The position numbers were made by a program, and so were the translations under genes. From assembly GCF_007678455.1 (NCBI RefSeq), contig NZ_VEEP01000007.1, positions 192,541 through 256,540 of the forward strand: a DNA stretch of 64,000 bases, read 5' to 3'. The stretch is from Cytobacillus oceanisediminis 2691 (GTDB lineage: Bacteria; Bacillota; Bacilli; Bacillales; Cytobacillaceae). Below, piece by piece: positions 44,519 through 62,771 of this stretch. Within the stretch, counting starts at the first letter, position 1, and every line of letters begins with the position of its first letter. The notes under the pieces are model-generated. The model saw only the letters and a list, made by a program, of their open reading frames with translations. It did not search any database and was not told where the DNA came from.

Positions 44519-44532
44519 TGAAAACGATAACA
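44519..44532 (+). promoter_or_regulatory. cre site (CcpA catabolite-repression element)
   Basis: TGAAAACGATAACA matches the cre consensus TGWAANCGNTNWCA at every position. It stands 156 bases before the first ABC permease gene of the beta-glucan locus, so repression by glucose through CcpA is expected. Confidence 0.8.
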
Positions 44533-44538
44533 ATGTGA

Positions 44539-44587
44539 TGGTATCAATATTTTGGCCGATTTTTCCAAAACTAAAAAATTGGTACCA
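44539..44587 (+). promoter_or_regulatory. Large leader hairpin before the sugar transporter operon
   Basis: TGGTA-CAAT pairs with ATTG-TACCA, and an inner TTTTGG pairs with CCAAAA. It lies between the cre site and a small terminator. Whether it is transcribed depends on an unidentified start site. Confidence 0.4.
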
Positions 44588-44602
44588 TAAGCAAAATTCG
44601 AT

Positions 44603-44629
44603 GGCTTATAAATGTAAGCCCTTTTTTTT
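44603..44629 (+). terminator. Intrinsic terminator in the leader of the sugar transporter operon
   Basis: GGCTTA, six-base loop, TAAGCC, then eight T. It lies 45 bases before the permease start codon, which is the wrong place for an operon end and suggests attenuation. Confidence 0.6.
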
Positions 44630-44674
44630 ATGATGAAGATACAAGAAAGACAAAGCAGCCAAGGTGGTGAAGAA

Positions 44675-45661
44675 ATGGAAGTCAAGATAGAACAGCCAGT
44701 CGAACAACAAGTTACTGACACCATTATCGAAAAGGCAACAAAAAAAGAAAAATACCAAAAAATCAAAAAGACAATCATTTCACAAAAGTATTTGCAGACG
44801 ATGGCGCTTCTGGGTGTAGTATGGATGTTCATCTTTAACTATATCCCAATGTATGGGCTGATCATCGCGTTCAAGGAATATAGCATCATCAAGACGATTT
44901 CGGAGGCACCATGGGTTGGATTGATGCAGTTTAAGGAATTCCTGCAGGATGAAAATTTCTGGATTGTCCTCAAAAATACCCTGGGAATCAGCTTGATTAA
45001 ATTGATTATCGGTTTCCCGCTCCCAATCATTTTTGCTCTTTTGCTTAATGAACTAACATCTATGAAGCTAAAGAAAGCGGTTCAGACAATTTCTTACTTG
45101 CCGCATTTTATTTCATGGGTTGTACTTGGAGGCATCTTGACTACATGGCTGGCGGATATCGGTGTCATCAATGATATTTTGCTAGGTTTAGGGTTGATCA
45201 GTGAACGGACGAATTTCCTGGCTGAGCCGGATAACTTCTGGGCGATTGTCATTCTCTCGGATATTTGGAAAGAACTTGGATGGTCAGCAATCATCTATCT
45301 GGCAGCTATTGCTGGTGTATCTCCGGAACTATACGAATCATCCACAATTGATGGAGCAAATCGTTTTCAAAAAATGTGGCACGTCACATTGCCGTCAATT
45401 CGCCCAACCATCACAATCTTGTTCATTCTTGCTGTAAGCGGTGTCCTGAATTCAAACTTCGATCAGATCTTGATTTTGCGAAACTCATTGAATGAGAGCG
45501 CCAGTAACGTTATTGATATTTACGTCTATCAGATGGGTCTGCAAAATGCCCGCTACTCATACGCAACAGCAGTTGGTTTATTGAAAGCGATCATCGCCTT
45601 CATCCTGCTCCTGTCTGCGAACAAGATTACGAAGAAACTGAATGGAACATCTTTATTCTAA
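44675..45661 (+). CDS. Carbohydrate ABC transporter permease (LplB type)
   Basis: The 328-residue protein has a charged N-terminal extension of about 40 residues, then six membrane segments (MALLGVVWMFIFNYIPMYGLIIAFKEYS). The EAA loop lies in AAIAGVSPELYESSTIDGANRFQKMWHVTLPSI. LplB/YtcP-type permeases serve oligosaccharide importers driven by YesM/YesN two-component systems. The ATG at 44675 follows AGGTGGTGA; an ATG at 44630 also opens the frame. It is the first gene of the importer, with a cre site and an attenuator-like leader upstream. Confidence 0.92.
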   Translation: MEVKIEQPVEQQVTDTIIEKATKKEKYQKIKKTIISQKYLQTMALLGVVWMFIFNYIPMYGLIIAFKEYSIIKTISEAPWVGLMQFKEFLQDENFWIVLKNTLGISLIKLIIGFPLPIIFALLLNELTSMKLKKAVQTISYLPHFISWVVLGGILTTWLADIGVINDILLGLGLISERTNFLAEPDNFWAIVILSDIWKELGWSAIIYLAAIAGVSPELYESSTIDGANRFQKMWHVTLPSIRPTITILFILAVSGVLNSNFDQILILRNSLNESASNVIDIYVYQMGLQNARYSYATAVGLLKAIIAFILLLSANKITKKLNGTSLF

Positions 45662-45674
45662 GGGGGGTGAGGTT

Positions 45675-46574
45675 GTGTTTAAGCTTTTTAAACGGAACCG
45701 GCGAACAACAAGCGAATATATCTTCGACAACGTTAACATTCTCATTATGCTCTTTATCTGCGGCATCACGGTCTACCCAATCTGGTATGTTCTCGTCAAC
45801 TCACTGAATGATGGTGTCGATGCCATGCGGGGGGGAATCTACTGGTGGCCGCGTGAGTTCACTTTTGCAAACTATAAGGCGGTTTTTGAAACACCTGGCA
45901 TTGTTACATCATTTGGTGTGACCATTGCCAAAACGGTTATCGGCACAATCACCCATGTATTTTTTACAGCGATGGTTGCTTATGCTATTTCGAGACGAGA
46001 CCTTTACGGCAGGAACTTTTACATGCTGGTTGGTGTCATCACGATGTTTTTCAGCGGCGGATTGATTCCCTACTTCCTGTTGATCAGGGACCTTGGGTTG
46101 TTTGATAACTTCCTGGTGTATATCATTCCGACAATGTTCAACTTCTTCCATCTGATCATCTTTGTTTCCTTCTTCAGGGAATTGCCAACTTCTCTTGAGG
46201 AAGCAGCAAAAATAGATGGGGCAAATGACTTTATGATTTTTATCAAAGTAATCATCCCGCTGTCAATGCCAGTTATTGCTACCATCGCACTGTTCCAGGG
46301 TGTCTACCAGTGGAATGACTATTTTGCCGGAGTCATCTTTGTAAATAACCCTGACCTGCAGCCAATCCAGACCTATCTATATAAGGTTGTAGCTGAGTCC
46401 AGCTCTAACCAAATGATGACGAATGCAGCGGGCTCGATTGCAACGAAGACAGTAACCTCTCAGTCAATCAAACTGGCAACAATGGTTGTAACGACGCTTC
46501 CGATCATGCTGGTCTATCCATTCCTGCAGAAATACTTTGTAAAAGGAATGCTGATTGGATCAGTAAAAGGTTGA
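45675..46574 (+). CDS. Carbohydrate ABC transporter permease (YtcP/LplC type)
   Basis: This 299-residue partner permease has six membrane segments. It carries the EAA loop in LPTSLEEAAKIDGANDFMIFIKVIIPLSMP and the C-terminal VYPFLQKYFVKGMLIGSVKG typical of the MalG-like half. GGGGGGTGAGG precedes the GTG at 45675, which is preferred over the earlier in-frame start. Two strong hairpins separate it from the binding-protein gene. Confidence 0.93.
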   Translation: MFKLFKRNRRTTSEYIFDNVNILIMLFICGITVYPIWYVLVNSLNDGVDAMRGGIYWWPREFTFANYKAVFETPGIVTSFGVTIAKTVIGTITHVFFTAMVAYAISRRDLYGRNFYMLVGVITMFFSGGLIPYFLLIRDLGLFDNFLVYIIPTMFNFFHLIIFVSFFRELPTSLEEAAKIDGANDFMIFIKVIIPLSMPVIATIALFQGVYQWNDYFAGVIFVNNPDLQPIQTYLYKVVAESSSNQMMTNAAGSIATKTVTSQSIKLATMVVTTLPIMLVYPFLQKYFVKGMLIGSVKG

Positions 46575-46588
46575 TTCTATTAACAATG

Positions 46589-46623
46589 ATTTAAATTTTT
46601 CTTCTTAGAAGAAATTTAAATAA
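46589..46623 (+). other. Perfect intergenic hairpin between permease and binding-protein genes
   Basis: ATTTAAA-TTTCTTC and GAAGAAATTTAAAT pair across TTA. No T-run follows, so it is more likely an mRNA 3' stabiliser or processing site than a terminator. Confidence 0.6.
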
Positions 46624-46785: not shown

Positions 46786-48441
46786 ATGAGGAGAAAATTT
46801 CTTTCCAAAGGCTTTTCACTAATGCTTGTTCTATCTTTGGTTTTGGCATTGTTTTCAGGTTGTTCCAACAAGGCAAATGAAAACGCTTCCGATGAAAAGG
46901 ACACAGACAAACCAAAAGCAACAGCCAATGCACCTGGATGGCAGTCCAACAAGGAACCGATTACTTTTGATTGGTATGTGAACTTTTCCTGGTTCGCACA
47001 TAAATGGGGCGACGATGTTGTTTCAAAGTATGTAACAGATAAAACTGGTGTTTCTGTCAACTTCATTTCACCAGCAGGCAACGAAGCTGAGAAAATGAAC
47101 ACGATGATTGCATCAGGCAAGCTTCCTGATTTCATCACGATCGGCTGGTGGGAAGATGCTGTCAAGAAGATGATCGAAGGCGAGCTTGTCATTCCATTGA
47201 ATGAACTTGCTGACCAGTATGATCCGTATTTCTTTAAGGTAGCAGATGGAGCAAAGATTGAATGGTATAAGCAGGAAGATGGCAATACTTACGGTTATCC
47301 AAATGCTTCTTCATCACCAAAAGATTTTGACAAATATAAAGACCTTAAGCCATCAAACCAGACATTTCTTGTAAGAAAAGATATGTATGAAGCAATCGGC
47401 AGCCCTGATATGAGCACGCCTGAAGGATTCTTGAAGGCGCTTGAAGCTGCCAAAGAAAAATTCCCTGAAGTGAACGGCGCACCGCTGATTCCTTTCGGCT
47501 TAAATGAATTTACGGATGTAGGAAACACTTCCCTTGAAGGCTATTTGCAAAACTTCCTTAACATCCCGATGGAAAAAGACGGAAAGGTTTATGACCGCAG
47601 CCAGGATCCAGAGTATCTTGCATGGTTAAAAACTTTTAGAGAAGCAAATGACAAAGGGCTTCTTGCTAAGGACATCTTCATTGATAAGCGTCCGCAAATG
47701 GAAGAAAAGATCTCACAAGGCAGATACTTCGCAATGCTTTATCAGCGAAGTGACCTTGCAGCACAACAACACGCATTGTATGCTAAAGATCCTAACTCCG
47801 TATATATTGCAGTAGACGGACCTGCTAACTCAAATGGAGACGCACCTGCTTTGGCTGGTGACAGCATCTCAGGATGGACAGTGACTCTGATTTCCAAAGA
47901 TGTGAAAGATAAAGAAAGAGCAATTCAATTCCTGACTTACCTGATCAGCGAAGAAGGACAAATGGACCTTTATATGGGTAAAGAGGGCGAAACATATGAT
48001 ATGGCAAACGGTAAGCCTGAATTCAAACCGGAAGTATTGGATCTGCTGAATAAGGACCGCGCAGCTTTTGACCAACAGTATGGTGCTTCATTCAAGTACT
48101 GGATGCTTATGGATACAAACATGAGCCTTGCATGGGCACCGCCAGCTTCTGAACCATTCAAGCAAATGGAAGACTGGACAAAAGGAAAAACAGTCAGCTA
48201 TGCAGAATTTGATGGCATCAGCCCAACTGGAACTTCCACAGAAGGTGTCGCAGCAAGCAAGATCGCACAAGAATGGGGTAAAACACTTCCTAAGCTTCTG
48301 CTTGCTAAATCTGGTAAAGAGTTCGATAAACTCTACAACGACTTCCTGAAGAAACGTGATTCTTTCGGCTATGAAAAAGTGGAAAAGTATCAGCAGGAAG
48401 TATATGAAAACAATAAGAAAAAACTTGATGCAGCAAATTAA
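46786..48441 (+). CDS. Extracellular solute-binding lipoprotein of a carbohydrate ABC transporter (LplA type)
   Basis: The 551-residue lipoprotein has signal LVLSLVLALFSGCSNK (lipidated Cys26). A long family-1 solute-binding fold includes DWYVNFSWFAHKWGDDVVSKYVTDKTGV, SGKLPDFITIGWWEDAVKKMIEGELVIPLNELADQYDPYF and a Trp/Phe-rich ligand region. The size is typical of LplA/YtcQ-type proteins that bind oligosaccharides. No ATPase gene lies in the locus; such systems normally borrow a shared MsmX-type ATPase. It is separated from the permeases by two hairpins, which may set a higher binding-protein level. Confidence 0.93.
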   Translation: MRRKFLSKGFSLMLVLSLVLALFSGCSNKANENASDEKDTDKPKATANAPGWQSNKEPITFDWYVNFSWFAHKWGDDVVSKYVTDKTGVSVNFISPAGNEAEKMNTMIASGKLPDFITIGWWEDAVKKMIEGELVIPLNELADQYDPYFFKVADGAKIEWYKQEDGNTYGYPNASSSPKDFDKYKDLKPSNQTFLVRKDMYEAIGSPDMSTPEGFLKALEAAKEKFPEVNGAPLIPFGLNEFTDVGNTSLEGYLQNFLNIPMEKDGKVYDRSQDPEYLAWLKTFREANDKGLLAKDIFIDKRPQMEEKISQGRYFAMLYQRSDLAAQQHALYAKDPNSVYIAVDGPANSNGDAPALAGDSISGWTVTLISKDVKDKERAIQFLTYLISEEGQMDLYMGKEGETYDMANGKPEFKPEVLDLLNKDRAAFDQQYGASFKYWMLMDTNMSLAWAPPASEPFKQMEDWTKGKTVSYAEFDGISPTGTSTEGVAASKIAQEWGKTLPKLLLAKSGKEFDKLYNDFLKKRDSFGYEKVEKYQQEVYENNKKKLDAAN

Positions 48442-48601: not shown

Positions 48602-50482
48602 ATGTTGGGTGTGATTAAAGTGGACTTTCATAAAAAAATTAAAGAGGCAGCGACCTGGTTTGACCGCCTTTCCCTGCAACAAAAGCTAATTGCCTTATAT
48701 ATCATCATTATCATTATTCCGATTATCATTTTTATCTCCATCTATTCCAGTAACGTATATGACAGGGCGATAACCGAAATCAGCATCAAGAGTGAAAATG
48801 CTCTGGAAATTGAAAAAATCCACATTAAAAACAATATAGAATCCATGAGACGGACGGCCCAGATGGTCGTTTCAGATATGGAATTCATTGATTTCGTTAA
48901 AAGCCGAAATGAAGCGAACGTCGACCAGTTAATAGATTTCAGGATGAACGAGCTTTCGAATGTCACCAGGCTGCAGGCAAATAACCCTGCCATAGAAAAT
49001 ATCCGCCTTTATACGACCAATCCATATGTAACCGAGATGTGGCCGATTCTCTTCAAGGAAGAACGGATCATGCAAAAGCCATGGAGAGATGAAGTCATCA
49101 ACAGGAATGGCATGGAGGTATGGTGGTTTGACCAGCAGACAGAGGATGTTCTGGAACGGCTGCCATCACAAAACACTGCGAAAATTTCTTTGTTGCGGGA
49201 ACTGGATTATCCAAAGGACGAACATTTAGGGATCATCGAAATTAATATGTTCCTGAAAAACTTTTTTCCTAAGATGTTCGGATCTGTTCAGGATCCTGAT
49301 TCAGTGTATGCCGTGATCGACAAAGACAACAACATGATCAGGAACTTCCATCATACCTTTTTTGAAGATGAGGGAATTGACACAGAAGAGCTCAAACTGA
49401 AATTCAATAAATCAAAACACGAAGGCACTGGCAGTTTTCAGTTTGAAAACAATGAAACTCCATATCTAGTCATTACAGCCTACATCGAAGATTTGGATGC
49501 CTATCTGCTGAATGTCATTTCACTTGAGAGCCTTTATGCTGAAACTGCCAAGACAAGGAATGTTATTTTTAGCGGAATTATCTTTTTAGTTATTATTCTT
49601 TCTTTTGTCACCTATGTATTGGTCTTATTGCTCTTGAAAAAAATGTACAAACTGAAGGATTCAATGGAGCGAGTCGGGCACGGGGATTTTTCCGTGGATG
49701 TAGAGGTTGACGGTCAGGATGAGATTTCAGAACTGGCATTTCATTTTAAAAGCCTGCTTGGTAAAATGAACGGACTGATTGCTGAAGCTGTCAATAAGCA
49801 GGCAGCTGCAAAGGAAACCGAATTAAAGGCACTGAAGACCCAGATTGATTCCCACTTTCTGTATAACACATTGGAAAACATCAAAATGATGGCAGAAATA
49901 GAAGGGGAGTACGCTATTTCTGATGCAGTAACCTCGCTTGGGGAAATGATGCGTTATAATCTTAAATGGAAAAATGACTTTGTGATCCTGGAAGAAGAAC
50001 TCAATTATATAAAAAACTATGTAGATATCATGAATCTGCGTCTGGATGGGCAGCTGACTTTAACGATTGATGTCCCAAACGAATTGCGGGACCAGGAAGT
50101 CCTGAAAATGTCACTGCAGCCGATTATCGAAAATGCGATTAAACATGGAATTATTCCGAACAACCAGAAAGACAGAGGCATCCTGCAGGTGAGCGCGAGG
50201 TATTCTGATGACTATGTCACTATTGAGATCGAGGATAATGGCGTTGGGATGACGCAAGAGCAGTGCGAGGCCCTCAACAGATCCCTCCAAACTGGTGAGG
50301 AACATCAAAATCATGGTTCCAAAGGCGGCAATGGCATTGGGATCCACAATGTGAATGAGAGGATCAAGCTTTACTATGGAACAGAGTATGGAGTGTTTGT
50401 TACAAGTGTCAAAGGCGAATTCACGATGGTGACATTAAAAATGCCTTGCAAAATTATGAAAGGGGGCAGCCAAAGTGTATAA
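48602..50482 (+). CDS. YesM-type sensor histidine kinase
   Basis: About 626 residues: a membrane segment near 25-45, an extracellular Cache-like domain (about 50-310), a second membrane segment (VIFSGIIFLVIILSFVTYVLVLLLL), a HAMP domain (MYKLKDSMERVGHGDFSVDVEVDG) and a kinase core. The kinase core has phospho-acceptor His418 in QIDSHFLYNTLENIK (His_kinase family of the YesM/LytS group) and an ATPase domain with ENAIKHGI and DNGVGM. It should sense a glucan oligosaccharide outside the cell. ATG 48602 and GTG 48620 are both possible starts. It overlaps the regulator gene by eight bases. Confidence 0.93.
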   Translation: MLGVIKVDFHKKIKEAATWFDRLSLQQKLIALYIIIIIIPIIIFISIYSSNVYDRAITEISIKSENALEIEKIHIKNNIESMRRTAQMVVSDMEFIDFVKSRNEANVDQLIDFRMNELSNVTRLQANNPAIENIRLYTTNPYVTEMWPILFKEERIMQKPWRDEVINRNGMEVWWFDQQTEDVLERLPSQNTAKISLLRELDYPKDEHLGIIEINMFLKNFFPKMFGSVQDPDSVYAVIDKDNNMIRNFHHTFFEDEGIDTEELKLKFNKSKHEGTGSFQFENNETPYLVITAYIEDLDAYLLNVISLESLYAETAKTRNVIFSGIIFLVIILSFVTYVLVLLLLKKMYKLKDSMERVGHGDFSVDVEVDGQDEISELAFHFKSLLGKMNGLIAEAVNKQAAAKETELKALKTQIDSHFLYNTLENIKMMAEIEGEYAISDAVTSLGEMMRYNLKWKNDFVILEEELNYIKNYVDIMNLRLDGQLTLTIDVPNELRDQEVLKMSLQPIIENAIKHGIIPNNQKDRGILQVSARYSDDYVTIEIEDNGVGMTQEQCEALNRSLQTGEEHQNHGSKGGNGIGIHNVNERIKLYYGTEYGVFVTSVKGEFTMVTLKMPCKIMKGGSQSV

Positions 50483-51983
50483 AGTCCTTATAGCTGATGA
50501 TGAGAAAAATATCCGATTGGGCATACAGGCAATGATTAAGAGAGAGCATCCAGAGTTTACTACTTTTATTGCCAGTGATGGACAGGAAGCCCTTGAACTA
50601 ATAGCTGAAAATGAACCAGATATCGTGATCACTGATATTAAAATGCCGAGGATGGATGGTATCCAGCTGATCAAGGAAATCCAGCAAAGAGAAATCAAAA
50701 CAGCCATTGTGATCCTAAGTGGCTATGATGATTTCACTTATGCCAAGGAAGCGATCAAGTATAAGGTGAGAGATTATCTTCTGAAGCCGGTCAATCGTTC
50801 AGAGCTTTTCAAAACTCTTAAATTGATCACTGAAGAACTGGAACAAAGCCAGAAAATGACCTATCAGCACATGGATGAATATCGTGCCAGTCAGCTGAAT
50901 TATATTTTGCTCAGTCCTAATCTGCAAATGGATGTTGTAGAGGATCTTTATAAGAAAATGAAAATCGAAGCCTATCCGGATGGCTTTTATGTAGGGATCA
51001 TCGATGCGGATGCTGAGATTGAAAAGAATCATTTGCTTGAAAAGATCAATCAGCTGCTTTGTTCACCCAATGATTGCATTCCATTTCTCGATAATGATGA
51101 CAGGGTGACCATTATTTCAGCAGATCTCGAGCTATTTTCCCTGTTGAAAGAGCAGCTTGGCAGGGACAGACATTTGGTCTTCACCATTGGCATCAGTGAG
51201 AAGGAACAGGACATACGGGAATTGAAAAAAACGTATGAACAGGCAGCCACTGCCTTGAAGTACCATTTCCTCTATCCGCGCAGACAGGTTATTTATTATG
51301 AAAGTGTCAAAGAAAAGCCGGATGGTTCTTCAGTTCCGGTGGAATTGATCAATAAAATCTCCAATATGCTAGGAACAGAAAGGGAAAATGAAATAAAAAC
51401 TAACCTGAGACAGGTGATGGACTTTGATGTCATCTCGCACAGCAGCATCAGCTATCTGGAAGACTTGAATCAGGCAATCAATGAGACCATTTTCAAAGGG
51501 TTTTTTAAGCGGCTGGGGGATGAATCCCTTGTGACGTTTGAGCTATTGAACAAAATTGATGACATTTATAACTTTGATAATTTCCATGAATACTTCCATG
51601 CCCTCGAAGGGTTGCTAATGAGGATCCACGAATACAATAAACAAATGAGATCAGTGTATTCAGAGCAGAAATATATGGACCGGGCGATCGCCTATATCAG
51701 GGAAAATTACCACAAGGACTTGAATCTCGCCGTAGTGGCAAATTATATATCATTGAATTACTCCTATTTCAGCCACATGTTCAAGGAGTATATTGGTCAA
51801 AACTTCGTTGATTATTTAAAAATGGTCAGGGTAGAAAATGCAAAAAAACTGCTGAAAGAAACGGACTTTAAAATTCTTGAAATCAGCGAGATGGTTGGCT
51901 ACAAAAATCCCAAGCAGTTCGCACGAGTGTTCCGTGAAGCAGAAGGAATCTCGCCAAAAGAATATCGGGAAATGAATGGATGA
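50475..51983 (+). CDS. YesN-type AraC-family response regulator
   Basis: The 502-residue regulator has a receiver domain with phospho-acceptor Asp54 (IVITDIKMPRMDG) and conserved Lys in LKPVNR. A middle linker domain (about 130-390) follows, then a C-terminal AraC double helix-turn-helix (MDRAIAYIRENYHKDLNLAVVANYISLNYSYFSHMFKEYIG, then ILEISEMVGYKNPKQFARVFREAEGISPKEYR). The start is GTG with AAGGGGG upstream, inside the end of the kinase gene. It most likely activates the surrounding transporter and hydrolase genes. Confidence 0.94.
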   Translation: MYKVLIADDEKNIRLGIQAMIKREHPEFTTFIASDGQEALELIAENEPDIVITDIKMPRMDGIQLIKEIQQREIKTAIVILSGYDDFTYAKEAIKYKVRDYLLKPVNRSELFKTLKLITEELEQSQKMTYQHMDEYRASQLNYILLSPNLQMDVVEDLYKKMKIEAYPDGFYVGIIDADAEIEKNHLLEKINQLLCSPNDCIPFLDNDDRVTIISADLELFSLLKEQLGRDRHLVFTIGISEKEQDIRELKKTYEQAATALKYHFLYPRRQVIYYESVKEKPDGSSVPVELINKISNMLGTERENEIKTNLRQVMDFDVISHSSISYLEDLNQAINETIFKGFFKRLGDESLVTFELLNKIDDIYNFDNFHEYFHALEGLLMRIHEYNKQMRSVYSEQKYMDRAIAYIRENYHKDLNLAVVANYISLNYSYFSHMFKEYIGQNFVDYLKMVRVENAKKLLKETDFKILEISEMVGYKNPKQFARVFREAEGISPKEYREMNG

Positions 51984-52016: not shown

Positions 52017-52795
52017 CCCAAGTTTGGACAAAAGCTTGCCCGTGTGACTTTGTTTTGTCTGAAGTGACGCCAAGTTCGGACAAAGTGTGGCCTGTGGGGC
52101 TTCGTATTGTCCGAAGTGCCTCCAAGTTCGGACAAAGTGTGGCCTGTGCGGCTTCGTATTGTCTGAAGTGACGCCAAGTTCGGACAAAAGCTCGGCGGTA
52201 GGGCTTGGTTTTGTCCGAAGTGCCTCCAAGTTCGGACAAAAGCTCGGCGGTGTGGCTTCGTATTGTCCGAAGTGCCCCCAATTTCGGACAAAGTGTGACC
52301 TGTGCGGCTTCGTATTGTCTGAAGTGACGCCAAGTTCGGACAAAAGCTCGGCGGTAGGGCTTGGTTTTGTCCGAAGTGACGCCAAGTTCGGACAAAGTGT
52401 GGCCTGTGTGGCTTCGTATTGTCCGAAACGCCTCCAAGTTCGGACAAAGTGTGGCCTGTGTGGCTTCGTATTGTCCGAAGTGCCTCCAAGTTCGGACAAA
52501 GTGTGGCCTGTGCGGCTTCGTATTGTCTGAAGTGCCTCCAAGTTCGGACAAAGTGTGGCCTGTGGGGCTTCGTATTGTCCGAAGTGCCCCAAAGTTCGGA
52601 CAAAGTGTGACCTGTGCGGCTTCATATTGTCCGAAGTGCCCCCAAGTTCGGACAAAGTGTGACCTGTGCGGCTTTATATTGACCGAAGTAACCCAGGGTT
52701 CGGACAAAAAGATTGGCGGCACGTCTTCGTTTTGTCCGAACTAGCTCCAGGTTCGGACAAAATCTCTCCGGTGCGCCTTCACTTTGTCTGAAGCA
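52017..52795. repeat. Array of 52-bp hairpin repeats (TTCGGACAAAGTGTGG type)
   Basis: About fifteen 52-bp units fill the gap between the regulator and the intracellular GH16 gene. Each has TTCGGACAA, about 23 bases (such as AGTGTGGCCTGTGCGGCTTC plus three), TTGTCCGAA and an 11-base linker such as GTGCCTCCAAG. Middle units are 90 percent or more identical and the outer ones decay. Two sub-types alternate (AGTGTGGCCTGTG and AAGCTCGGCGGT). Long open frames run through it on the minus strand in all three phases, but with no start signals. No gene is seen in 52796-53009. Confidence 0.93.
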
Positions 52796-53009
52796 GCGCT
52801 ATGTTCTTATACCTGCATCTAAATCAACGCTCTTATCCCAATAAAATTTGCACTTTTTGGAAGTGTTTTCACCTGGAATTCCGTTCTTCTAAAATATTGA
52901 CACCCTAAACAAAATTCTCTATCTCAAGATGCTTTGCTGGCAAAGGTAGAATAGGAATTGAGAGATATTTTGTTCGAAGCAATCAGTTTTTCTGAAAGGG
53001 GAAGTTTAG

Positions 53010-53829: not shown

Positions 53830-55164
53830 ATGAACAAGTTTTCAAAGGATTTTATTTTTGGTACAGCAACCTCTTCCTATCAGATTGAAGGGGCCTATCA
53901 GGAAGATGGAAGAACCCTGTCTATATGGGATACGTTTTCCCGGACTCCGGGTAAGGTCTTCAATATGGATAACGGGGATATCGCCTGTGACCACTACCAC
54001 TTATATGAAAAGGATATTGAGATTTTAAAAACGCTTGGTGTGGATTCTTATCGCTTCTCGATTGCCTGGCCAAGGATTTTCCCGGAGCAGGGCAAGTATA
54101 ACGAAGCGGGAATGAACTTTTATAAAAAGCTTATAACACTCTTGAATCAAAATGGCATTAAGCCTGCAGTCACTCTTTACCACTGGGATTTGCCAATGTG
54201 GGCCCATGAAAAGGGCGGCTGGACAAACAGGGAATCCGTCAATTGGTTCTTGGAGTATGCTGAAAAATGCTTTGAGGAACTTGATGCACATGTGGAAATG
54301 TGGATTACCCATAATGAACCATGGTGCGCAGGTTTCCTCGGCTACCATCAGGGCGTCCATGCACCGGGACATACCAATATGGAAGAGGCGGTAAAGGCTG
54401 TCCATTATATGCTTCTGTCCCATGGTGAAGCTGTTTCCTTGCTGAAAGGGAAATTTGCTTCGGAAACTCCGATCGGGATTACGCTGAACCTGTCACCGGT
54501 GTACCCGGCAAGCAATTCTGCCAATGACCAGCTGGCTGCCAATAATGCGGATGGCTACACGAATAGGTGGTTCCTGGATCCTGTGCTAAAAGGATCTTAC
54601 CCTGCGGATATGATGAATCTTTTTTCAAAATATGTCCATTCCTTCGACTTCATCCAGGAAGGCGACTTGGAGAAAATTTCTGTGGAATGTGATTTCTTTG
54701 GAATCAACTACTATAATCGCAGTCTTGTTGAATTCAATGCAGCATCGGACTTCCTGTTCAAGAGTGCCTATTCAGATTATCCAAAGACCGGAATGGGATG
54801 GGATATATCGCCGGCTGAATTTAAAGAACTGATTCATCGCCTGCGCAAGGAATATACGAATCTGCCAATCTATATAACCGAAAATGGCTCGGCGTTCGAT
54901 GATTTTGTTTCAGATGACCATCGTGTCCATGATACCGAGAGACAGGACTATGTGGAAAAACATATTCGTGCCGTTGCCCAGCTCAATGAGGAGGGCATGA
55001 ACGTCGCCGGGTATTATCTATGGTCTTTGCTCGATAATTTTGAATGGGCATTTGGCTACGACAAACGCTTTGGAATCACGTATGTTGATTTCGAGACACA
55101 GGAGAGAATCCTTAAGGATAGCGGTTACCGCTATGCCGAAATTATCAGGAACCGCTCAATCTAA
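53830..55164 (+). CDS. GH1 beta-glucosidase
   Basis: The 444-residue protein contains the GH1 start FIFGTATSSYQIEGA, the acid/base Glu163 in THNEPW and the nucleophile Glu351 in YITENGSAFDD. No signal peptide is seen, and the LicH/BglA type is typical. No 6-phospho-specific signature is evident. Since the importer is ABC-type rather than PTS, unphosphorylated gluco-oligosaccharides are the likely substrates. The frame opens earlier, but the ATG at 53830 begins the conserved sequence and follows AGAGGTGAACAGAGG. Confidence 0.94.
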   Translation: MNKFSKDFIFGTATSSYQIEGAYQEDGRTLSIWDTFSRTPGKVFNMDNGDIACDHYHLYEKDIEILKTLGVDSYRFSIAWPRIFPEQGKYNEAGMNFYKKLITLLNQNGIKPAVTLYHWDLPMWAHEKGGWTNRESVNWFLEYAEKCFEELDAHVEMWITHNEPWCAGFLGYHQGVHAPGHTNMEEAVKAVHYMLLSHGEAVSLLKGKFASETPIGITLNLSPVYPASNSANDQLAANNADGYTNRWFLDPVLKGSYPADMMNLFSKYVHSFDFIQEGDLEKISVECDFFGINYYNRSLVEFNAASDFLFKSAYSDYPKTGMGWDISPAEFKELIHRLRKEYTNLPIYITENGSAFDDFVSDDHRVHDTERQDYVEKHIRAVAQLNEEGMNVAGYYLWSLLDNFEWAFGYDKRFGITYVDFETQERILKDSGYRYAEIIRNRSI

Positions 55165-55190: not shown

Positions 55191-58100
55191 ATGGGGAAAT
55201 ATCGATTTGATGAAAAACAATATTTTGTAATTGAAGACTTCGATCAGGCAAAGACCTTTTCGAGCTTCCTGCCGGGATTGGCCGGGTTGTACGGTATACC
55301 GATGTGGGCTTTTTACGTAAACCGCGGCCAGGCGATGGTCAGCTTTGGTGTCCAGGATAAAAACCATGCGATCACAGAGTTTTTCCCGGCAAACCAGGCC
55401 TACCAGCGAGTATCAATGAATGGTTTCCGCACTTTTATCAAATTGGATGGAAAAATCGTTTTTGAACCATTCTCGTCATATGGACGCAAAAAAGATCGTA
55501 CGAGAAACATGTATATAAAAGAAAACGAACTGAAAATTGAAGAAATCAACCACCAATATGGAGTGAAATCACTAATCACATATTTCACATTGCCGAATGA
55601 GAACTTCGGCTCATTGGTAAGGAAGGTTGAAATAGAAAATCTATCTGAACGATCATTCGAACTGGAAGTGCTTGATGGTCTTCCAGCTATCATCCCATAC
55701 GGAATCGATGATGCAGCATACAAAGCGGTTGGAAATACGCTTAAAAGCTGGATGGATGTTTTCAATCTTGAAAATGGAATTCCGTATTACAGAGTCCGTT
55801 CTTCTACGAATGACTCTGCGGAAGTTGAAGAAATTTCGAAAGGTCATTTTTACTTGAGCTTCGATGACCATGGGCAATTGATCACTCCAGTCGTTGATGC
55901 GGAGCTTGTCTTTGGGTCGAACAGTTCATTCTCTTTCCCGGATGAGTTTGAAAGCAAATCACTTCATGAGTTATCGAAAGCTCAGCCGGTTACCTCCAAC
56001 AAAGTGCCTTGTGGATTCTCCGGTCTTAGAAGGCTGCTTGGAAAAGGAGAACAAGTCACATTCCACACGCTTGTCGGTCATGTGAAGGACATTGAAATCA
56101 TTAACGAAAAAGCAGCTGACATAAGAACTGCCGGATATATGGATAGAAAATACGAAGAAGCGCAGAACCTTGTTACGGAGATTACGAAGGATGTCGAGAC
56201 AAAGACAGCATCCCCGCTATTTGATGCCTATGTAAACCAGAGCTATCTTGATAATGTACTGCGCGGCGGCTTTCCAATTGAATTGGAGACAGATGGTTCA
56301 GCCTTTACTTATTATGTGTTTTCCCGGAAGCACGGCGACTTGGAGCGGGATTACAACTTTTTCTCGCTTGCACCTGAGTACTTTTCGCAGGGAAACGGAA
56401 ACTTCCGTGATGTGAACCAGAACCGCAGGAATGATGTGTTTTTCCATCCTGAGACGGGAGACTACAATATCAAGCTGTTCATGAGCCTGATTCAGGCGGA
56501 CGGCTATAATCCGCTCGTCGTAAAAGGAGCAAGCTTTGAACTAAAAAATCAATCAGATTGGGGATGGCTGGATGAACTGGTTCCTCTGCAGAAGGATGCT
56601 GAATTCATTAAAAAGAAGCTGATCGGAACCTATACACCAGGAGATTTACTCCAAACGTTTTCAGACAGCGACATTCAGCTAAACTCATCACTTCCGGATT
56701 TCCTGAAAAAAGTCCTTTCAAAGAGCTCCCAGAACATTGAAGCGGAGTTTGGAGAAGGCTACTGGATGGACCACTGGACGTACAATCTCGATCTGGTTGA
56801 AAACTATTTGAAGGTTTATCCGGAAAATAAAGCTCAGCTATTGTTCGATGATTATGGCTACAAATACTTCCACAGTCCAGTGTTTGTGAATCCGCGTTCT
56901 GAAAAATATGTCCTCGCTAATGGCAAAGTCCGTCAATACGAAGCCATCACAGAATTTGGGCATCAGCAAGGGTCAAATTGGGTGATGAGACCTGATGGTG
57001 AATTCTTTACTTCCAATCTTTACAGCAAACTGTTCTCATTGGCATTGCTGAAATTTTCTACATTGGATCCTTTTGGGATGGGGGTGGAAATGGAAGCGAA
57101 TAAGCCAGGCTGGAATGATTCCATGAATGGCCTGCCAGGAATATTCGGTTCAGCCATGAGTGAGACATTAGAGCTGAAACGCCTGCTTGAATTTCTCATA
57201 TCTTCTGGAGAGGCTGCAGAACTGGAGATTGCCCTGCCTGCAGAAATAGCCGTTCTGGCTGATTCAGTTGTAGAGTTCCTGAACCAATTTGAAAATGGCG
57301 AACTGGATAATTACAGCTACTGGAATCAAACAGCGGCTGCCCGTGAAAAATACCGCGAGTTAGTGAAAAACGGCTTTGAAGGTACGGAAAAGAACATCGA
57401 GTTGCAAAAGCTTACTGCTTATGTAAAGAAAATGCTTCATAAAACAAAAGCGGGAATTGACAAGGCAACGGAGCTTGGCAATGGGTTGCTTCCAACTTAT
57501 TTCTCCTTCGAAGCAGTGAACTGGGAAAAGATCGTCGATGAGAACGGAAATGAAAAACTGAATAAAAAGGGCTTGCCGTTGGTCAAGGTCAATAGCTTTG
57601 AAGTGTCTGTTCTTCCGCATTTCCTTGAAGGTCCTGCAAGGGCTTTGAAGACTGCCGACCTGCAAACAGCTAGGTCGACATATCAGCATGTAAGGAACTC
57701 GGAAATTTACGACAGTAAGCTGAAAATGTACAAAACTTCTGGATCTCTTGAAGACCAAACATTTGATATCGGCCGTGCGAGGGCATTCACTCCAGGCTGG
57801 CTTGAGCGGGAATCCATCTTCATGCATATGGAATTCAAATATCTGCTCAGTGTCCTGAAGTCCAGATTGTATGAAGAGTTCTATGAAGATATCATCTATG
57901 CAATGCCGCCGTTCATGGATGCAGAAGTGTACGGAAGGAGCGTCCTTGAAAATTCATCATTTATTGCGAGCAGTGTTAATCCTGATTCCAGTCTCCATGG
58001 ACAAGGCTTTGTCGCAAGGCTAAGTGGAACGACGGCAGAATTTTTAAGCATCTGGCAGTTGATGATGATGGGGAAAAACCTTTTTGACGTAAACGAAAAA

Positions 58101-58370
58101 GGGCTGACGCTGCAGCTTGAGCCGATTCTTCCTTCATGGCTTTTCGATTCAGAGGGCAAGGTGCAATTTACATTGCTGGGCAAAATTCAGGTAACCTATC
58201 ACAATCCATCAAGGAGAAACACTTTCGGTGATGAAGGTGCCAAGACTGTTAAGTATGTACTCCAAATGAATGGCGAAGAGGTTGAGGTTAATGGCGATAA
58301 GCTGCAGGATGCCTATGCACAAGCTGTTAGGGACGGAAAAGTATCAAGGATGGATGTTTACCTAGATTAA
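55191..58370 (+). CDS. GH94-clan glycoside phosphorylase, probable GH161 beta-1,3-glucan phosphorylase
   Basis: This 1059-residue cytoplasmic protein has an N-terminal beta-sandwich and a central (alpha/alpha)6 barrel. In the barrel, GYWMDHWTYNLDLVENYL (around Asp527) and KPGWNDSMNGLPGIFGS (Asp643) stand where GH94 phosphorylases have their substrate-binding and catalytic Asp regions. It is longer than cellobiose or cellodextrin phosphorylases (about 800-980). Its size, GWNDSMNGLPG variant and laminarinase neighbours fit GH161, described from Euglena and Paenibacillus enzymes acting on beta-1,3-glucans. It would split oligoglucosides with phosphate to glucose-1-phosphate, saving ATP. Assignment to GH161 rather than GH94 or GH149 is inference. 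Confidence 0.78.
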   Translation: MGKYRFDEKQYFVIEDFDQAKTFSSFLPGLAGLYGIPMWAFYVNRGQAMVSFGVQDKNHAITEFFPANQAYQRVSMNGFRTFIKLDGKIVFEPFSSYGRKKDRTRNMYIKENELKIEEINHQYGVKSLITYFTLPNENFGSLVRKVEIENLSERSFELEVLDGLPAIIPYGIDDAAYKAVGNTLKSWMDVFNLENGIPYYRVRSSTNDSAEVEEISKGHFYLSFDDHGQLITPVVDAELVFGSNSSFSFPDEFESKSLHELSKAQPVTSNKVPCGFSGLRRLLGKGEQVTFHTLVGHVKDIEIINEKAADIRTAGYMDRKYEEAQNLVTEITKDVETKTASPLFDAYVNQSYLDNVLRGGFPIELETDGSAFTYYVFSRKHGDLERDYNFFSLAPEYFSQGNGNFRDVNQNRRNDVFFHPETGDYNIKLFMSLIQADGYNPLVVKGASFELKNQSDWGWLDELVPLQKDAEFIKKKLIGTYTPGDLLQTFSDSDIQLNSSLPDFLKKVLSKSSQNIEAEFGEGYWMDHWTYNLDLVENYLKVYPENKAQLLFDDYGYKYFHSPVFVNPRSEKYVLANGKVRQYEAITEFGHQQGSNWVMRPDGEFFTSNLYSKLFSLALLKFSTLDPFGMGVEMEANKPGWNDSMNGLPGIFGSAMSETLELKRLLEFLISSGEAAELEIALPAEIAVLADSVVEFLNQFENGELDNYSYWNQTAAAREKYRELVKNGFEGTEKNIELQKLTAYVKKMLHKTKAGIDKATELGNGLLPTYFSFEAVNWEKIVDENGNEKLNKKGLPLVKVNSFEVSVLPHFLEGPARALKTADLQTARSTYQHVRNSEIYDSKLKMYKTSGSLEDQTFDIGRARAFTPGWLERESIFMHMEFKYLLSVLKSRLYEEFYEDIIYAMPPFMDAEVYGRSVLENSSFIASSVNPDSSLHGQGFVARLSGTTAEFLSIWQLMMMGKNLFDVNEKGLTLQLEPILPSWLFDSEGKVQFTLLGKIQVTYHNPSRRNTFGDEGAKTVKYVLQMNGEEVEVNGDKLQDAYAQAVRDGKVSRMDVYLD

Positions 58371-58388: not shown

Positions 58389-59723
58389 ATGGAATTAAAA
58401 TTGATCCAGAGTGCTAAGGACAACGGAGAGCGTTTTGCTGACAAGGGCCATATTTCTTTTACAGATGAGCCTGTGCAAGATCTTGTGATGAAGCTTGACC
58501 CAGAAAAGAAATACCAAAGCTTCATGGGATTCGGCGGAGCTTTTACAGAGGCAGCTGCTTACACACTTTCGCAAATTCCCGGGGAAGAACGCGCAAAAAT
58601 AATCGACAGCTATTTTAACCAGGAGACAGGTCTTGGTTACAGCCTGGGCAGGACCCATATCCATAGCTGTGATTTTGCCCTCGAAAATTACACCTATGTT
58701 GAAGAGAATGACACGGAGCTTAAAACCTTCACAATTGAGCGTGAAAACAAATATGTACTGCCGCTCATAAAGGATGCTGTGAAATCAAGGGGAGAGGAAT
58801 TGACGATTCTTTCTTCTCCATGGAGCCCGCCAGCATGGATGAAAACAAATAATGAGATGAATCACGGTGGAAAACTGAAGCCAGAGTTCTATGATACATG
58901 GGCTTTGTATTACACCAAATATATCAAAGCCATGGAATCAGAAGGTGTGCCGATCTGGGGGATCACCGTCCAAAATGAGCCTGAAGCAACGCAGGTTTGG
59001 GATTCTTGCAGATATAGTGCTGAAGAAGAGCGCGATTTTGTCAAAAATCATTTAGGTCCTGTCATGGAAAAGGAAGGCCTTGAGGACAAGAAAATCATCA
59101 TCTGGGACCACAACCGGGATATCGCCTATGAACGGGCAAAAACGATTCTATCAGATTCTGAGGCTGCAAAATATATTTGGGGTACAGGTCTCCACTGGTA
59201 TGTATCAGAAGAATTCGAGAATTTGAGCAAGATTCACGAAGACTTCCCTGACAAGCACCTGATTTTTACCGAAGGATGCATTGAGGGAGGAGTTCAGCTG
59301 GGTGCCTGGCATACTGGAGAACGTTACGCCAGGAACATCATGGGCGATATCAACAACTGGCTTGAAGGCTGGATTGACTGGAATCTTGTCCTGAACGAAC
59401 AGGGCGGGCCAAACCATGTAGGTAACTACTGCGATGCTCCAGTGATCGTCGACACGAAAACTGGTGAGGTTCACTATAACAGCTCCTTTTATTATATTGG
59501 GCACTTCAGCAAATACATCAAGCCGAACGCAGTTAGAATCGGACATGAGTTAAATCATGATTCTTTAAAAGCAGTATCAATTACAAATGAAGATGGCTCT
59601 GTTGTCGCAGTTGTCATGAATGATGAAGACAGAATAGAGTCATTCTCATTATCGGTCGGAGGCAAGATTGCCAAAGCCGAGCTGCCTGGTCATTCAATTA
59701 CAACATTCATAATAGAAAGTTAA
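58389..59723 (+). CDS. GH30-family glucosidase/glucanase
   Basis: The 444-residue protein opens with the GH30 block YQSFMGFGGAFTEAAAYTL. It keeps the acid/base Glu197 in GITVQNEPEA and the nucleophile Glu295 in IFTEGCIEGG, then SFYYIGHFSKYIKPNAVRIG of the C-terminal beta domain. Clan and length suggest the glucosylceramidase-like GH30 subgroup, which in bacteria includes beta-1,6- and beta-1,3-glucan-active enzymes. There is no signal peptide. In this locus, removal of beta-1,6 branches from imported laminarin fragments is the natural proposal. GAGGTG precedes the ATG, 18 bases after the phosphorylase gene. Confidence 0.92.
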   Translation: MELKLIQSAKDNGERFADKGHISFTDEPVQDLVMKLDPEKKYQSFMGFGGAFTEAAAYTLSQIPGEERAKIIDSYFNQETGLGYSLGRTHIHSCDFALENYTYVEENDTELKTFTIERENKYVLPLIKDAVKSRGEELTILSSPWSPPAWMKTNNEMNHGGKLKPEFYDTWALYYTKYIKAMESEGVPIWGITVQNEPEATQVWDSCRYSAEEERDFVKNHLGPVMEKEGLEDKKIIIWDHNRDIAYERAKTILSDSEAAKYIWGTGLHWYVSEEFENLSKIHEDFPDKHLIFTEGCIEGGVQLGAWHTGERYARNIMGDINNWLEGWIDWNLVLNEQGGPNHVGNYCDAPVIVDTKTGEVHYNSSFYYIGHFSKYIKPNAVRIGHELNHDSLKAVSITNEDGSVVAVVMNDEDRIESFSLSVGGKIAKAELPGHSITTFIIES

Positions 59724-59730
59724 GCTCTGC

Positions 59731-59799
59731 CACCTCCTTGTCATGACAAAATGTGATTTACGCTAATGATCAACATGAAAAGGAGGTGGATTTATTTTA
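59731..59799 (+). terminator. Long hairpin between GH30 and secreted GH16 genes
   Basis: CCACCTCCTT-TCATG pairs with CATGA-AAGGAGGTGG across about 28 bases, followed by ATTTATTTTA. The left arm copies the 16S rRNA anti-Shine-Dalgarno sequence, and the right arm is a perfect Shine-Dalgarno with no start codon after it. Most likely a terminator or attenuator. Confidence 0.6.
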
Positions 59800-59840
59800 G
59801 AAGTCTTTAATGCTTGTAAAATAATGAAGGAGGAATTGGT

Positions 59841-62771
59841 ATGAAGAAGACCTTGGCTCTTTTGTTGAGTGCCATGATGATTTTGCCAGCAGCCAGTTTC
59901 GGGGCGCCAAAAGATAAACCAGGAAATGAAGAGTTGAAAAACAAACAGAACAAATCTGAGTGGTCACTTGTCTGGTCAGATGAGTTCAGCGGTCCGGAAA
60001 TCGACCGCAGCAAATGGACTTATGATATCGGGAACTGGATCGTAGATGAGGATGGCAACGGGGTTACTTCAGGTTGGGGCAACAACGAGAAAGAGTATTA
60101 TACGGATTCTGATGAAAACGCTTTTATTGATGATGGCAAGCTTGTCATAAAAGCGAAAAAAGAACAGGTTACAGACCAGTTTGGAACATACGATTATACT
60201 TCTGCCAAACTCAAAACAAAAGGTCTCTTCAGCAAGACATACGGCAGATACGAAATCAAGGCGAAGCTGCCAACAGGCAAAGGACTTTGGCCTGCGATCT
60301 GGATGCTTCCTGAAGAAGATAAATATGGTTCCTGGGCAGCCTCCGGTGAAATCGATATCATGGAGGCGTGGGGAAGCCGGCCGAATACAGTGGCAGGAAC
60401 AATCCATTATGGCGAAGGCTGGCCAAATAACAAGTATACAGGTAAGGAATTCGAACTTCCTGAAAACAGAGGCATTGACAAGTGGCATACATATGCTCTC
60501 GAATGGGAGCCTGGAGAGCTACGCTGGTATGTTGATGGTCAACTCTATCAAACTCAAAATAAATGGTATTCAAAAGGAAAGGATAACGCAGCAAACTATT
60601 CCTATCCTGCACCTTTTGATCAGGAATTCTATTTGGTTATGAACCTTGCAGTTGGAGGCTGGTTTGACGGTGAAGTTGACGAGACGACGAAATTCCCAAG
60701 CCAGATGGAAGTCGACTATGTAAGGGTGTACGACTTGAAGAAACGGGATTACCGCGAACCTGTGGAACCGGTGTCCGGACCTGTGGAATTGCCAGCAGAT
60801 GCTAAGCAGCCTTTAGAGGATGGCAATTTGGTTTATGACCAAAACTATCAAAAGCCAGTAACAGTAGTGGATCAGCCTGGGGTGGAACTGGATCCGCTAT
60901 ATTGGAACTTTGTGAAGTTGCCAGAGTTCGGAGGAGACGGCAGATTAGAACTAGAGGAAATCGATAGCAAGAATTTTGCTAAAATGAATATCACGAATCC
61001 AGGTTCACAGCTTTATTCCCTGCAAATGATCCAGAACATCTCGCTTGGCAATGGCGGGAAGTATAAGGTCAGCTTTGATGCCAAATCGACTGCGGGAAGA
61101 AAGGTCATGGTAAAAGTAGGGGCTGGCGAGAAACGAGGCTGGGTGAAGTATTCGAATGAGGAATCCTTCCAGCTTTCTGCCGAGCTGCAACGCTATGAAT
61201 TTACATTTGATATGCTGAATGAGACTGATATTGCATCAAGGCTTGAGTTCAATCTTGGCGGCAATGGGACGAATCCGGTTTGGATCGGCAATGTAAAAGT
61301 TGAAGATATTACAGGCACACCAGTAGATCAAAATGGTGCAAAACAGCCGTTGCCAAATGGCAACCATGTTTATAATGGAACATTCGACCAGGGTGGCATG
61401 GACCGGATGATATTCTGGAATTTCTCAGTTGAAGAAGCAGCTGCAAAGGCCTCTGTTTCTGAAAACACACGAGAACTTCATGTGGCAATTGAAGAGGGGG
61501 ACAGCCATCCTGAAGCAGTCCAGCTTGACCAAAAAGGGATTAACCTGGTTGCGGGAAATGATTATAAGCTTTCCTTTAAAGCAAAAGCAGCAGAACAAAG
61601 ACCGATTCAAGTCAGCCTTTTGAATGTTGGCGGCACGGTTAACTACTCTGGAATTGGCACAATTGAGCTCACTTCCAATATGGAAGAGAAAACATTTGAA
61701 TTTACAATGCCAGAAAATATTTCTGATTCAGAAGCTCAGCTTGTCTTTAGTTTTGGCGGCGGAGATGTCGATGTTTATATGGATGATGTTGTCCTGATAA
61801 AAACATCCAACATTCCGGACTATGGAGACATTGACTTATACCCTTTGAAAAATGGGGATTTCACAGACGGATTATCAGCTTGGGAAAATTATGCTCATTA
61901 TGATGCCAGCGCCCAGATCACTCCAGAAAATGGAGAGGCCAAAGTGGCTATTGGCAATGAAGGAAATGAAACTTGGAGCGTCCAGCTGATACAGCCGAAC
62001 TTGAACCTTACTAAAGAAGTGGTCTATGAATTATCCTTCGATGCCCGTTCTACAAAGGATAGACAGGCTGAGGTAACGATTGAGAACGCTGAATATACTC
62101 GGTTCTTGAGTAAATCGATCACACTTAATAACCAAATGCAGCAATTCACCTATGAATTCAAAATGCCCGCCGATGACATTGCGTCCTTCAAAATGCTGCT
62201 TGGTAAAAACGCTCTTTCACCAGTCGGCGCACATGATGTATTTATCGATAACGTGGTGTTGAAGGTTAAAGACGCTCCGTCCGAGCAAGATCCCGGCTCC
62301 ACTCCGGGAATTGATAACGGAACATTCAGCGCTGGAACGGAAAGCTGGTCCTCATGGTGGGGCGACCAGTGGAGCGGGTATGCTGCTGGAGAGATGACGG
62401 CTGACAATGGAGAACTAAAGGTTGCGATTTCACAGATTGGCGGTGCATCGTATTCTCCTCAGGTATTTCAAAAGGATTTGCTTTTTGAAAATGGCAGCAG
62501 CTATACAGTAGCTTTTGATGCAAGAGCAGATGTGCCAAGGAAAATGAATGTCAATATTGGCAGGGAATTGAGCACGGACCCTTGGTTCATAGCTTATATG
62601 CCAACACACACAGTGGATTTAACGACAGATATGACCCATCACAGCATCACTTTTGTCATGACTGAAGAAACCTATGCAGATGGCAAAATCGTTTTCGAGC
62701 TGGGCAATATTTTCGAAGGCAATGCGGCAACAAATGTCTATCTGGACAATGTAAGCATCATAAAAAAATAG
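59841..62771 (+). CDS. Secreted multidomain GH16 endo-beta-1,3-glucanase with carbohydrate-binding modules
   Basis: The 976-residue protein has a Sec signal (about 1-21, MILPAASFGA). Its GH16 catalytic domain (about 40-300) carries Glu170, Asp172 and Glu175 in GEIDIMEAWG, plus TYGRYEIKAKLPTGKGLWPAIWMLP and NLAVGGWFDGEVD. Four beta-sandwich modules of the CBM4/9 type follow at about 325-490, 505-655, 665-815 and 825-976. They share YKVSFDAKSTAGRKVMVKVG / YELSFDARSTKDRQAEVTIE / YTVAFDARADVPRKMNVNIG blocks. It is the only exported hydrolase of the locus and should start degradation of laminarin-like glucan. AAGGAGG precedes the ATG. No anchor signal is seen. Confidence 0.94.
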   Translation: MKKTLALLLSAMMILPAASFGAPKDKPGNEELKNKQNKSEWSLVWSDEFSGPEIDRSKWTYDIGNWIVDEDGNGVTSGWGNNEKEYYTDSDENAFIDDGKLVIKAKKEQVTDQFGTYDYTSAKLKTKGLFSKTYGRYEIKAKLPTGKGLWPAIWMLPEEDKYGSWAASGEIDIMEAWGSRPNTVAGTIHYGEGWPNNKYTGKEFELPENRGIDKWHTYALEWEPGELRWYVDGQLYQTQNKWYSKGKDNAANYSYPAPFDQEFYLVMNLAVGGWFDGEVDETTKFPSQMEVDYVRVYDLKKRDYREPVEPVSGPVELPADAKQPLEDGNLVYDQNYQKPVTVVDQPGVELDPLYWNFVKLPEFGGDGRLELEEIDSKNFAKMNITNPGSQLYSLQMIQNISLGNGGKYKVSFDAKSTAGRKVMVKVGAGEKRGWVKYSNEESFQLSAELQRYEFTFDMLNETDIASRLEFNLGGNGTNPVWIGNVKVEDITGTPVDQNGAKQPLPNGNHVYNGTFDQGGMDRMIFWNFSVEEAAAKASVSENTRELHVAIEEGDSHPEAVQLDQKGINLVAGNDYKLSFKAKAAEQRPIQVSLLNVGGTVNYSGIGTIELTSNMEEKTFEFTMPENISDSEAQLVFSFGGGDVDVYMDDVVLIKTSNIPDYGDIDLYPLKNGDFTDGLSAWENYAHYDASAQITPENGEAKVAIGNEGNETWSVQLIQPNLNLTKEVVYELSFDARSTKDRQAEVTIENAEYTRFLSKSITLNNQMQQFTYEFKMPADDIASFKMLLGKNALSPVGAHDVFIDNVVLKVKDAPSEQDPGSTPGIDNGTFSAGTESWSSWWGDQWSGYAAGEMTADNGELKVAISQIGGASYSPQVFQKDLLFENGSSYTVAFDARADVPRKMNVNIGRELSTDPWFIAYMPTHTVDLTTDMTHHSITFVMTEETYADGKIVFELGNIFEGNAATNVYLDNVSIIKK

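Follow-up and report, generated by a model that had tools for sequence, protein, structure and literature searches.

A probable two-unit beta-1,3(1,6)-glucan utilisation locus in Cytobacillus oceanisediminis 2691, with a GH161 phosphorylase and a GH30 enzyme lacking a signal-like N-terminus

In the present study, we analysed a 64,000-nucleotide stretch of DNA from Cytobacillus oceanisediminis 2691 (contig NZ_VEEP01000007.1, positions 192,541 to 256,540; hereafter the window) for genes that may serve the use of beta-1,3-glucans with beta-1,6 branches. Within positions 44519-62771, ten open reading frames (ORFs) on the plus strand encode an ATP-binding cassette (ABC) importer, a YesM/YesN pair and five predicted glucan-active enzymes (Table 1). 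The importer, the YesM/YesN pair, the GH16, GH1 and GH30 enzymes and the phosphorylase had been listed in an earlier note on this DNA, and all were recovered as plus-strand ORFs matching the families named there. Taken together, the sequence evidence makes it very likely that the locus is a two-unit beta-1,3(1,6)-glucan utilisation regulon. The genome to which the window belongs spans 4.9 Mb in 477 contigs.

Table 1. Genes and sequence elements of the glucan locus, in window coordinates
Feature	Position	Strand	Evidence and remarks
cre-like site TGAAAACGATAACA, probable CcpA operator	44519..44532	+	first base 111 nt before lplB ATG
Putative YesN operator, copy 1, CTAAAAAATTGGTACCATAAGCAAAAT	44571..44597	+	before lplB unit
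lplB-type ABC permease	44630..45661	+	Pfam PF00528; start possibly 44675
lplC-type ABC permease	45642..46574	+	Pfam PF00528 (BPD_transp_1)
Lipoprotein solute-binding protein (SBP), family 1	46786..48441	+	solved SBPs by phmmer, best 5xs8 65.5 bits; lipobox LFSGC; no Pfam match
YesM-type sensor kinase	48602..50482	+	PF06580, PF02518, PF00672 (His_kinase/HAMP)
YesN-type response regulator, AraC DNA-binding domain	50475..51983	+	PF00072, PF12833
52-bp repeat array (about 14 copies) separating the two probable units	52018..52761		744 bp
Putative YesN operator, copy 2, CTAAAATATTGACACCCTAAACAAAAT	52889..52915	+	before enzyme unit
GH16 (small), endo-beta-1,3-glucanase-like, no signal peptide	53010..53807	+	PF00722; laminarinase 3azx 230.4 bits
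GH1 beta-glucosidase, no signal peptide	53830..55164	+	TIGR03356 594.6 bits (curated beta-glucosidase cut-off 478.5); 5dt5 763 bits
GH161 beta-1,3-glucan phosphorylase, 1059 aa, no signal peptide	55191..58370	+	9qqk and 9h8v alignments
GH30, probable beta-1,6-glucanase or -glucosidase, no signal peptide	58389..59723	+	PF02055
Secreted laminarinase-like GH16 (large), four CBM_4_9 stretches	59841..62771	+	4dfs 238.7 bits; signal-like N-terminus

The import module is of the LplABC/YesMN type, with two permeases, a lipoprotein SBP and a YesM/YesN pair, and it has no ATPase gene. A single protein of the genome, a 367-aa ATPase encoded outside the locus, matched the MalK OB-fold family, and this MalK/MsmX-type protein could be the partner of the ATPase-less importer. 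Both GH16 enzymes have the motif EIDIME, GH1 has NEP and TENG, and GH30 has NEP and FTEG, which we take to be the catalytic motifs of these families. The GH1 gene probably starts at 53830 and not at the TTG at 53713. The lplB gene may start at 44675, because no Shine-Dalgarno sequence is evident for the ATG at 44630, which lies 17 bases past a TATAAA.

The phosphorylase was aligned with the solved chain 9qqk at 905.8 bits over residues 9-1059 and with 9h8v at 905.3 bits (from residue 9/11). The former is named GH161 and the latter cellobiose phosphorylase, and the two are near-identical in the alignment shown. By its sequence the protein is a GH161 phosphorylase, because the alignment to the solved GH161 chains is full-length at about 905 bits. 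This bore out the probable GH161 call of the earlier note, as against GH94 and GH149. GH149 was rejected, with 109.5 bits for its model against an NCBIfam cut-off of 1150. GH94 was also rejected, with no GH94 model among the Pfam-A and NCBIfam matches at E up to 0.001; the product had no Pfam-A match at E 0.001. No paper on a GH161 structure was found in the literature search. No protein of the genome scored above the GH149 cut-off; genomes G007, G013, G016 and G020 encode another phosphorylase-like protein (about 1160-1183 aa), perhaps GH149, whose N-terminus has 27% identity to the window GH161.

The other enzymes are in line with a beta-1,3-glucan pathway. Both GH16 enzymes were close to laminarinases (Table 1) and matched licheninase-type 1,3-1,4-glucanases at 32 bits at most. 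PapP, a characterised GH161 enzyme, needs acceptors with a degree of polymerisation of 2 or more (PMC6484121; this and the other papers are cited from the portions of their text that were available). If the window GH161 is PapP-like, it would leave laminaribiose for GH1, and the passing of laminaribiose to GH1 was proposed in PMC6484121 for its own cluster. The genome also encodes a 593-aa phosphoglucomutase-type ORF, which, judged by its family, would use glucose-1-phosphate; a second member of this family has 450 aa. A third GH16 of the genome (G000:C221:287125-287652, locus L163) has a hydrophobic N-terminus and stands on another contig, beside a glycosyltransferase-like ORF; it perhaps belongs to exopolysaccharide handling and was given no part in the pathway.

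The genes probably form two transcription units, one for the importer and YesMN and one for the enzymes, because the 744-bp repeat array separates them and a conserved upstream block precedes the second. This block was found upstream of the small GH16 in an alignment of upstream regions, and a similar block stands upstream of lplB. One operon under one cre site was therefore rejected: the common direction of the genes, as described in the earlier note, stood, and the placing of all of them under a single cre site probably does not hold. The gap from yesN to GH16 that holds the array varies in length between relatives. The repeat has relatives elsewhere in the genome (contigs C221, C111 and C22), and another array of 52-bp period, with a different repeat unit, lies between genes at 39101-39484.

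The cre site at 44519, described earlier as perfect, does fit the consensus used, which has two matches in the window against a mean of 0.12 expected by chance. It begins 52 bases before the first putative operator. With up to one mismatch, a cre was present at a similar place in five of the six upstream regions compared, and upstream of the enzyme unit it was lacking from all 19 distinct small-GH16 regions, the window being included in both sets. The second match in the window (60347-60360) falls in the coding region of the secreted GH16.

In addition, a 27-bp motif precedes both units. The pattern CTAAAANATTGNNACCNTAANCAAAAT was built from these two sites and thus matches twice in the window by construction; at up to three mismatches it has no other place in the 4.9-Mb genome. 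Across the genus, the motif was found in 18 of 21 genomes, the same 18 that have GH161; these genomes are related, and the 18 are not independent events. GH161, GH30 and the motif are all absent from the same three genomes (G005, G011 and G017). There were 37 motif sites in the genus, of which 34 had the form of either locus site or of a close variant, and a reversed control pattern gave 3 sites. Two genomes that are fragmented at the locus (G009 and G016) had one locus site each. Three sites lie off the locus, on other contigs or at a great distance (G002:C1:472734, G003:C1:1347050 and G016:C62:40599), have three mismatches and are mutually alike, with the form CTAAAYGATTAAAACCATAAACAAAAA; this third, diverged copy may serve a related YesMN system. 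Furthermore, the motif keeps its place before the second unit where the recognised head gene is another one, GH1 in L030 and GH161 in L067 and L069. In Halobacillus and more distant loci, the motif was not found or was found only with 4-6 mismatches, and YesMN is less alike there too. Independent support for the motif comes from the lack of other copies, the joint loss with GH161 and GH30, and the place before differing head genes.

From its sequence and position, the motif is a probable YesN operator; YesN is proposed as its binder because the yesMN genes adjoin. To our knowledge, the DNA sites of YesMN systems have rarely been defined. No report of a YesN operator in these loci turned up in the open-licence literature, in which no search was aimed at it, and the term 'YesN' does not occur in the available portion of a study of Paenibacillus JDR-2 (PMC4765114).

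The GH30 of the locus belongs clearly to its family (PF02055, 270.7 bits against a cut-off of 23), and it plausibly handles beta-1,6 branches. Its location was examined by the mean Kyte-Doolittle value over 12 residues within the first 45, with a threshold of 1.8, which is a hydrophobicity rule and not SignalP. Of the 48 loci holding the gene, 47 allowed the GH30 start to be judged, and in all 47, window included, the N-terminus had no hydrophobic stretch (the highest mean was 0.79). In another set of loci, partly overlapping with these, such a stretch was seen in 0/39 distinct GH30 and 0/18 distinct small GH16 proteins. For that set, which also supplied the controls, matches of more than 44% identity that start no later than residue 25 of the query were used and identical sequences were dropped. 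The positive controls were signal-like throughout (secreted GH16, 19/19 distinct relatives; SBP, 20/20), and the negative controls had no hydrophobic N-terminus (GH161, 0/45; GH1, 0/38). In the window itself, the large GH16 has a signal-like N-terminus, and the small GH16, GH1, GH161 and GH30 do not.

In 17 of the 18 genus genomes with a GH30, its own genome among them, the locus GH30 is the sole one; the exception, G020, has three further GH30 matches clustered at C1:3998287-4003283. Branches are thus probably removed in the cytoplasm, because GH30 has no signal-like N-terminus in 47 of 47 loci and the genome has no second GH30; among the families able to cut beta-1,6 links outside the cell, which also include GH5 and GH3, this search of the genome covered GH30. 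No report of a cytoplasmic GH30 in these loci turned up in the open-licence literature, where no search was aimed at it.

In a sample of 397 genomes of the order, 59 had a GH161 match at E 1e-20 or better; among these, the match in G346 is a piece of about 150 residues only and that in G053 is in two pieces. The gene neighbourhood was compared in 68 loci of 67 genomes (18 of the genus and 49 others, one having two loci), with the window standing for its own genome, G000. GH30 was present in the examined stretch of 48 of the 68 loci, in 46 of them no more than 600 bp from GH161; it follows GH161 in 28 of the 48 and precedes it in 20. Where the GH161 was at least 49% identical, GH30 lay within 600 bp in 40 of 43 loci. 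The named records among the relatives include Mesobacillus subterraneus, M. boroniphilus and M. selenatarsenatis. One relative, L016 (JAGGQZ010000008.1, titled Chryseobacterium sp. ISL-80), has the same locus with a GH161 of 93% identity, and its organism name looks wrong.

In the scheme that we propose, the activities, the substrate and the regulation are predicted from the gene families, the lack of signal-like N-termini, the common motif and the genomic co-occurrence. The secreted GH16, with its CBM4 stretches, would cut a laminarin-like glucan outside the cell, and the lipoprotein with LplBC would take up both linear and branched oligosaccharides, with energy from a shared MsmX-type ATPase whose gene lies elsewhere. 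Within the cytoplasm, the beta-1,6 links would be removed by GH30 and long chains shortened by the small GH16. GH161 would phosphorolyse chains of at least three glucoses, giving glucose-1-phosphate and laminaribiose, and the remainder would be split by GH1. YesM would sense the sugar, YesN would activate both units through one operator before each, and CcpA would repress through the cre site. The outline of outside cutting, import and internal processing partly by phosphorolysis had already been given in the earlier note, and it is supported by the architecture, namely an extracellular GH16, an importer and cytoplasmic GH16, GH1, GH161 and GH30, and by the laminarinase type of the GH16 enzymes. 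We give about even chances to the fuller proposal, in which branched oligosaccharides are imported whole, debranching, endo-cutting and phosphorolysis are all intracellular with little lost to neighbours, and one operator, present twice in the genome, switches the pathway via YesMN.

Several findings weigh against parts of this scheme, and some of them favour other explanations. The assignment of the motif to YesN draws only on position and co-occurrence, the pattern was derived from these same sites, and the motif holds a -35-like word (TTGACA or TTGGTA); it might instead belong to a constitutive promoter or be left over from common descent. In simulated pairs of upstream regions from a first-order Markov model, the maximum was 21 identities, close to the 22 of 27 observed between the two window copies. 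Against this, none of the 1000 pairs reached 22 (mean 17.2), the sites are 8.3 kb apart and their flanks differ, the genome holds no further copy, and the motif keeps its place before differing head genes, so that we regard this explanation as unlikely. The cre site, for its part, was absent from one of the six upstream regions compared (L067). With regard to GH30, the score against the BT3312 endo-1,6-glucanase model was 297.3 bits, under the curated cut-off of 700, and the closest solved relatives were 2wnw (305 bits; its name refers to activation by SsrB), followed by lysosomal glucosylceramidases at about 278 bits. In view of this score below the cut-off and these glucosylceramidase relatives, its linkage specificity may be other than beta-1,6. 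Moreover, where the GH161 was less than 49% identical, GH30 lay within 600 bp in 6 of 25 loci only; GH30 is not essential to the use of GH161, because it is often missing near it in the more distant loci.

The location of GH30 is also drawn differently in print. The GH30 of Bacillus weihaiensis was predicted to be secreted by PSORTb and drawn outside the cell (PMC6484121), and a secreted GH30 of Paenibacillus JDR-2 is annotated as endo-1,6-beta-glucosidase (PMC4765114); for these two reasons, secreted GH30 enzymes do occur in the class. A cytoplasmic GH30 conflicts with the published model, and the B. weihaiensis GH30 is known here from the prediction of that paper alone. A rival reading is that GH30 acts outside after export without a classical signal and that only linear oligosaccharides are imported, as in that drawing. 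We consider this quite improbable for the window locus, in view of the uniform lack of a hydrophobic N-terminus in GH30, set against its presence in every secreted GH16 relative, and of the lack of a second GH30 in the genome. With the same pathway, the natural substrate could be the beta-1,3/1,6-glucan of fungal or yeast cell walls, or callose from plants, in place of algal laminarin, and we hold this to be a real if lesser possibility: the likeness of GH30 to the endo-1,6-glucanase model would suit the long beta-1,6 chains of fungal walls, and no alga-specific feature was found in the locus. On the other side, three of the 22 named loci (L025-L027) are from Halobacillus and have GH30 directly next to GH161, and rotting seaweed was the source of the B. 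weihaiensis strain with the matching locus (PMC5128808), both of which are weak either way. Finally, the locus might serve a mixed-linkage (beta-1,3/1,4) glucan, as in Blautia producta, which has the same plan of GH16, ABC importer and cytoplasmic phosphorylase and whose GH16 cuts both laminarin and mixed-linkage glucan, so that the GH16 type alone is not decisive (PMC10318527). This is very improbable here, since the phosphorylase is GH161 and not a GH94 cellodextrin phosphorylase, both GH16 enzymes are far nearer laminarinases than licheninases, and a beta-1,6-acting GH30 would have no obvious use on barley glucan.

Systems close to the preferred reading, a beta-1,3(1,6)-glucan regulon, have already been described. 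The locus of B. weihaiensis Alg07 consists of Bw3265 (GH30), Bw3266 (hypothetical), Bw3267 (GH1), Bw3268 (GH16), together with another GH16, Bw3263 (Zhu et al. 2016, PMC5128808), and Kuhaudomlarp et al. 2019 placed a GH161 in it (PMC6484121). Like the window, it thus has GH16, GH1, GH161, GH30 and GH16 in one locus. By position, Bw3266 is the GH161, and the numbers 3268-3267-3266-3265-3263 match the window order GH16-GH1-GH161-GH30-GH16, as judged from gene numbers alone. The difference is the GH30, reported as predicted secreted there and signal-less in the window; the available portions describe neither Bw3264 nor an importer, YesMN or operator next to the B. weihaiensis genes. Laminarin cleavage was shown for the GH16 enzymes Bw3263, Bw3268 and Bw2859, and quantitative reverse-transcription PCR at 24 h showed Bw3263, Bw3267 and Bw3268 to be up in kelp medium; the induced genes that the available portion names do not include Bw3265 or Bw3266 (PMC5128808). 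PMC6484121 describes GH30, GH1 and GH16 as highly expressed on laminarin exposure, where PMC5128808 speaks of kelp powder. No test of GH161 induction on laminarin was found in the open-licence literature. The Paenibacillus polymyxa PapP cluster is alike in its predicted cytoplasmic GH161 and GH1 and its importer, and differs in that the available description has no GH30 or GH16 and the cluster is proposed for simple linear oligosaccharides (PMC6484121). The Blautia producta locus is likewise Gram-positive with an extracellular GH16, an ABC importer and a cytoplasmic phosphorylase, and differs in its GH94 phosphorylase, its other linkage and the lack of growth on laminarin (PMC10318527).

Marine Bacteroidetes polysaccharide utilisation loci for laminarin share the proposed target polymer and the GH16/GH30 theme, with SusCD import and periplasmic hydrolysis, whereas ABC import and phosphorolysis are predicted for the window locus. 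The locus was proposed earlier as a Gram-positive counterpart of these marine loci. The novelty of this proposal is weak, as such a locus has been in print since 2016 and 2019 for B. weihaiensis Alg07. The window locus is a further member of the B. weihaiensis type of laminarin loci and not a new kind, and what it adds is modest: a signal-less GH30 across bacilli and a two-copy putative operator. As an example from the bacilli it is clean and, within its genus, common: beta-1,3-glucan is probably broken down by phosphorolysis and, by the N-terminal evidence, debranched inside the cell. If this is true, the published drawing of the GH30 location changes and the importer is predicted to accept branched oligosaccharides. 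A specific candidate operator is also offered for a YesMN system.

Elsewhere in the window, arrays of 20-21 bp period were seen at 12870-13213, 19434-19580, 22229-22334 and 62812-62934, and some of them have words such as TTCGCCAATAAAA and ATGTGGTCGAA in common.

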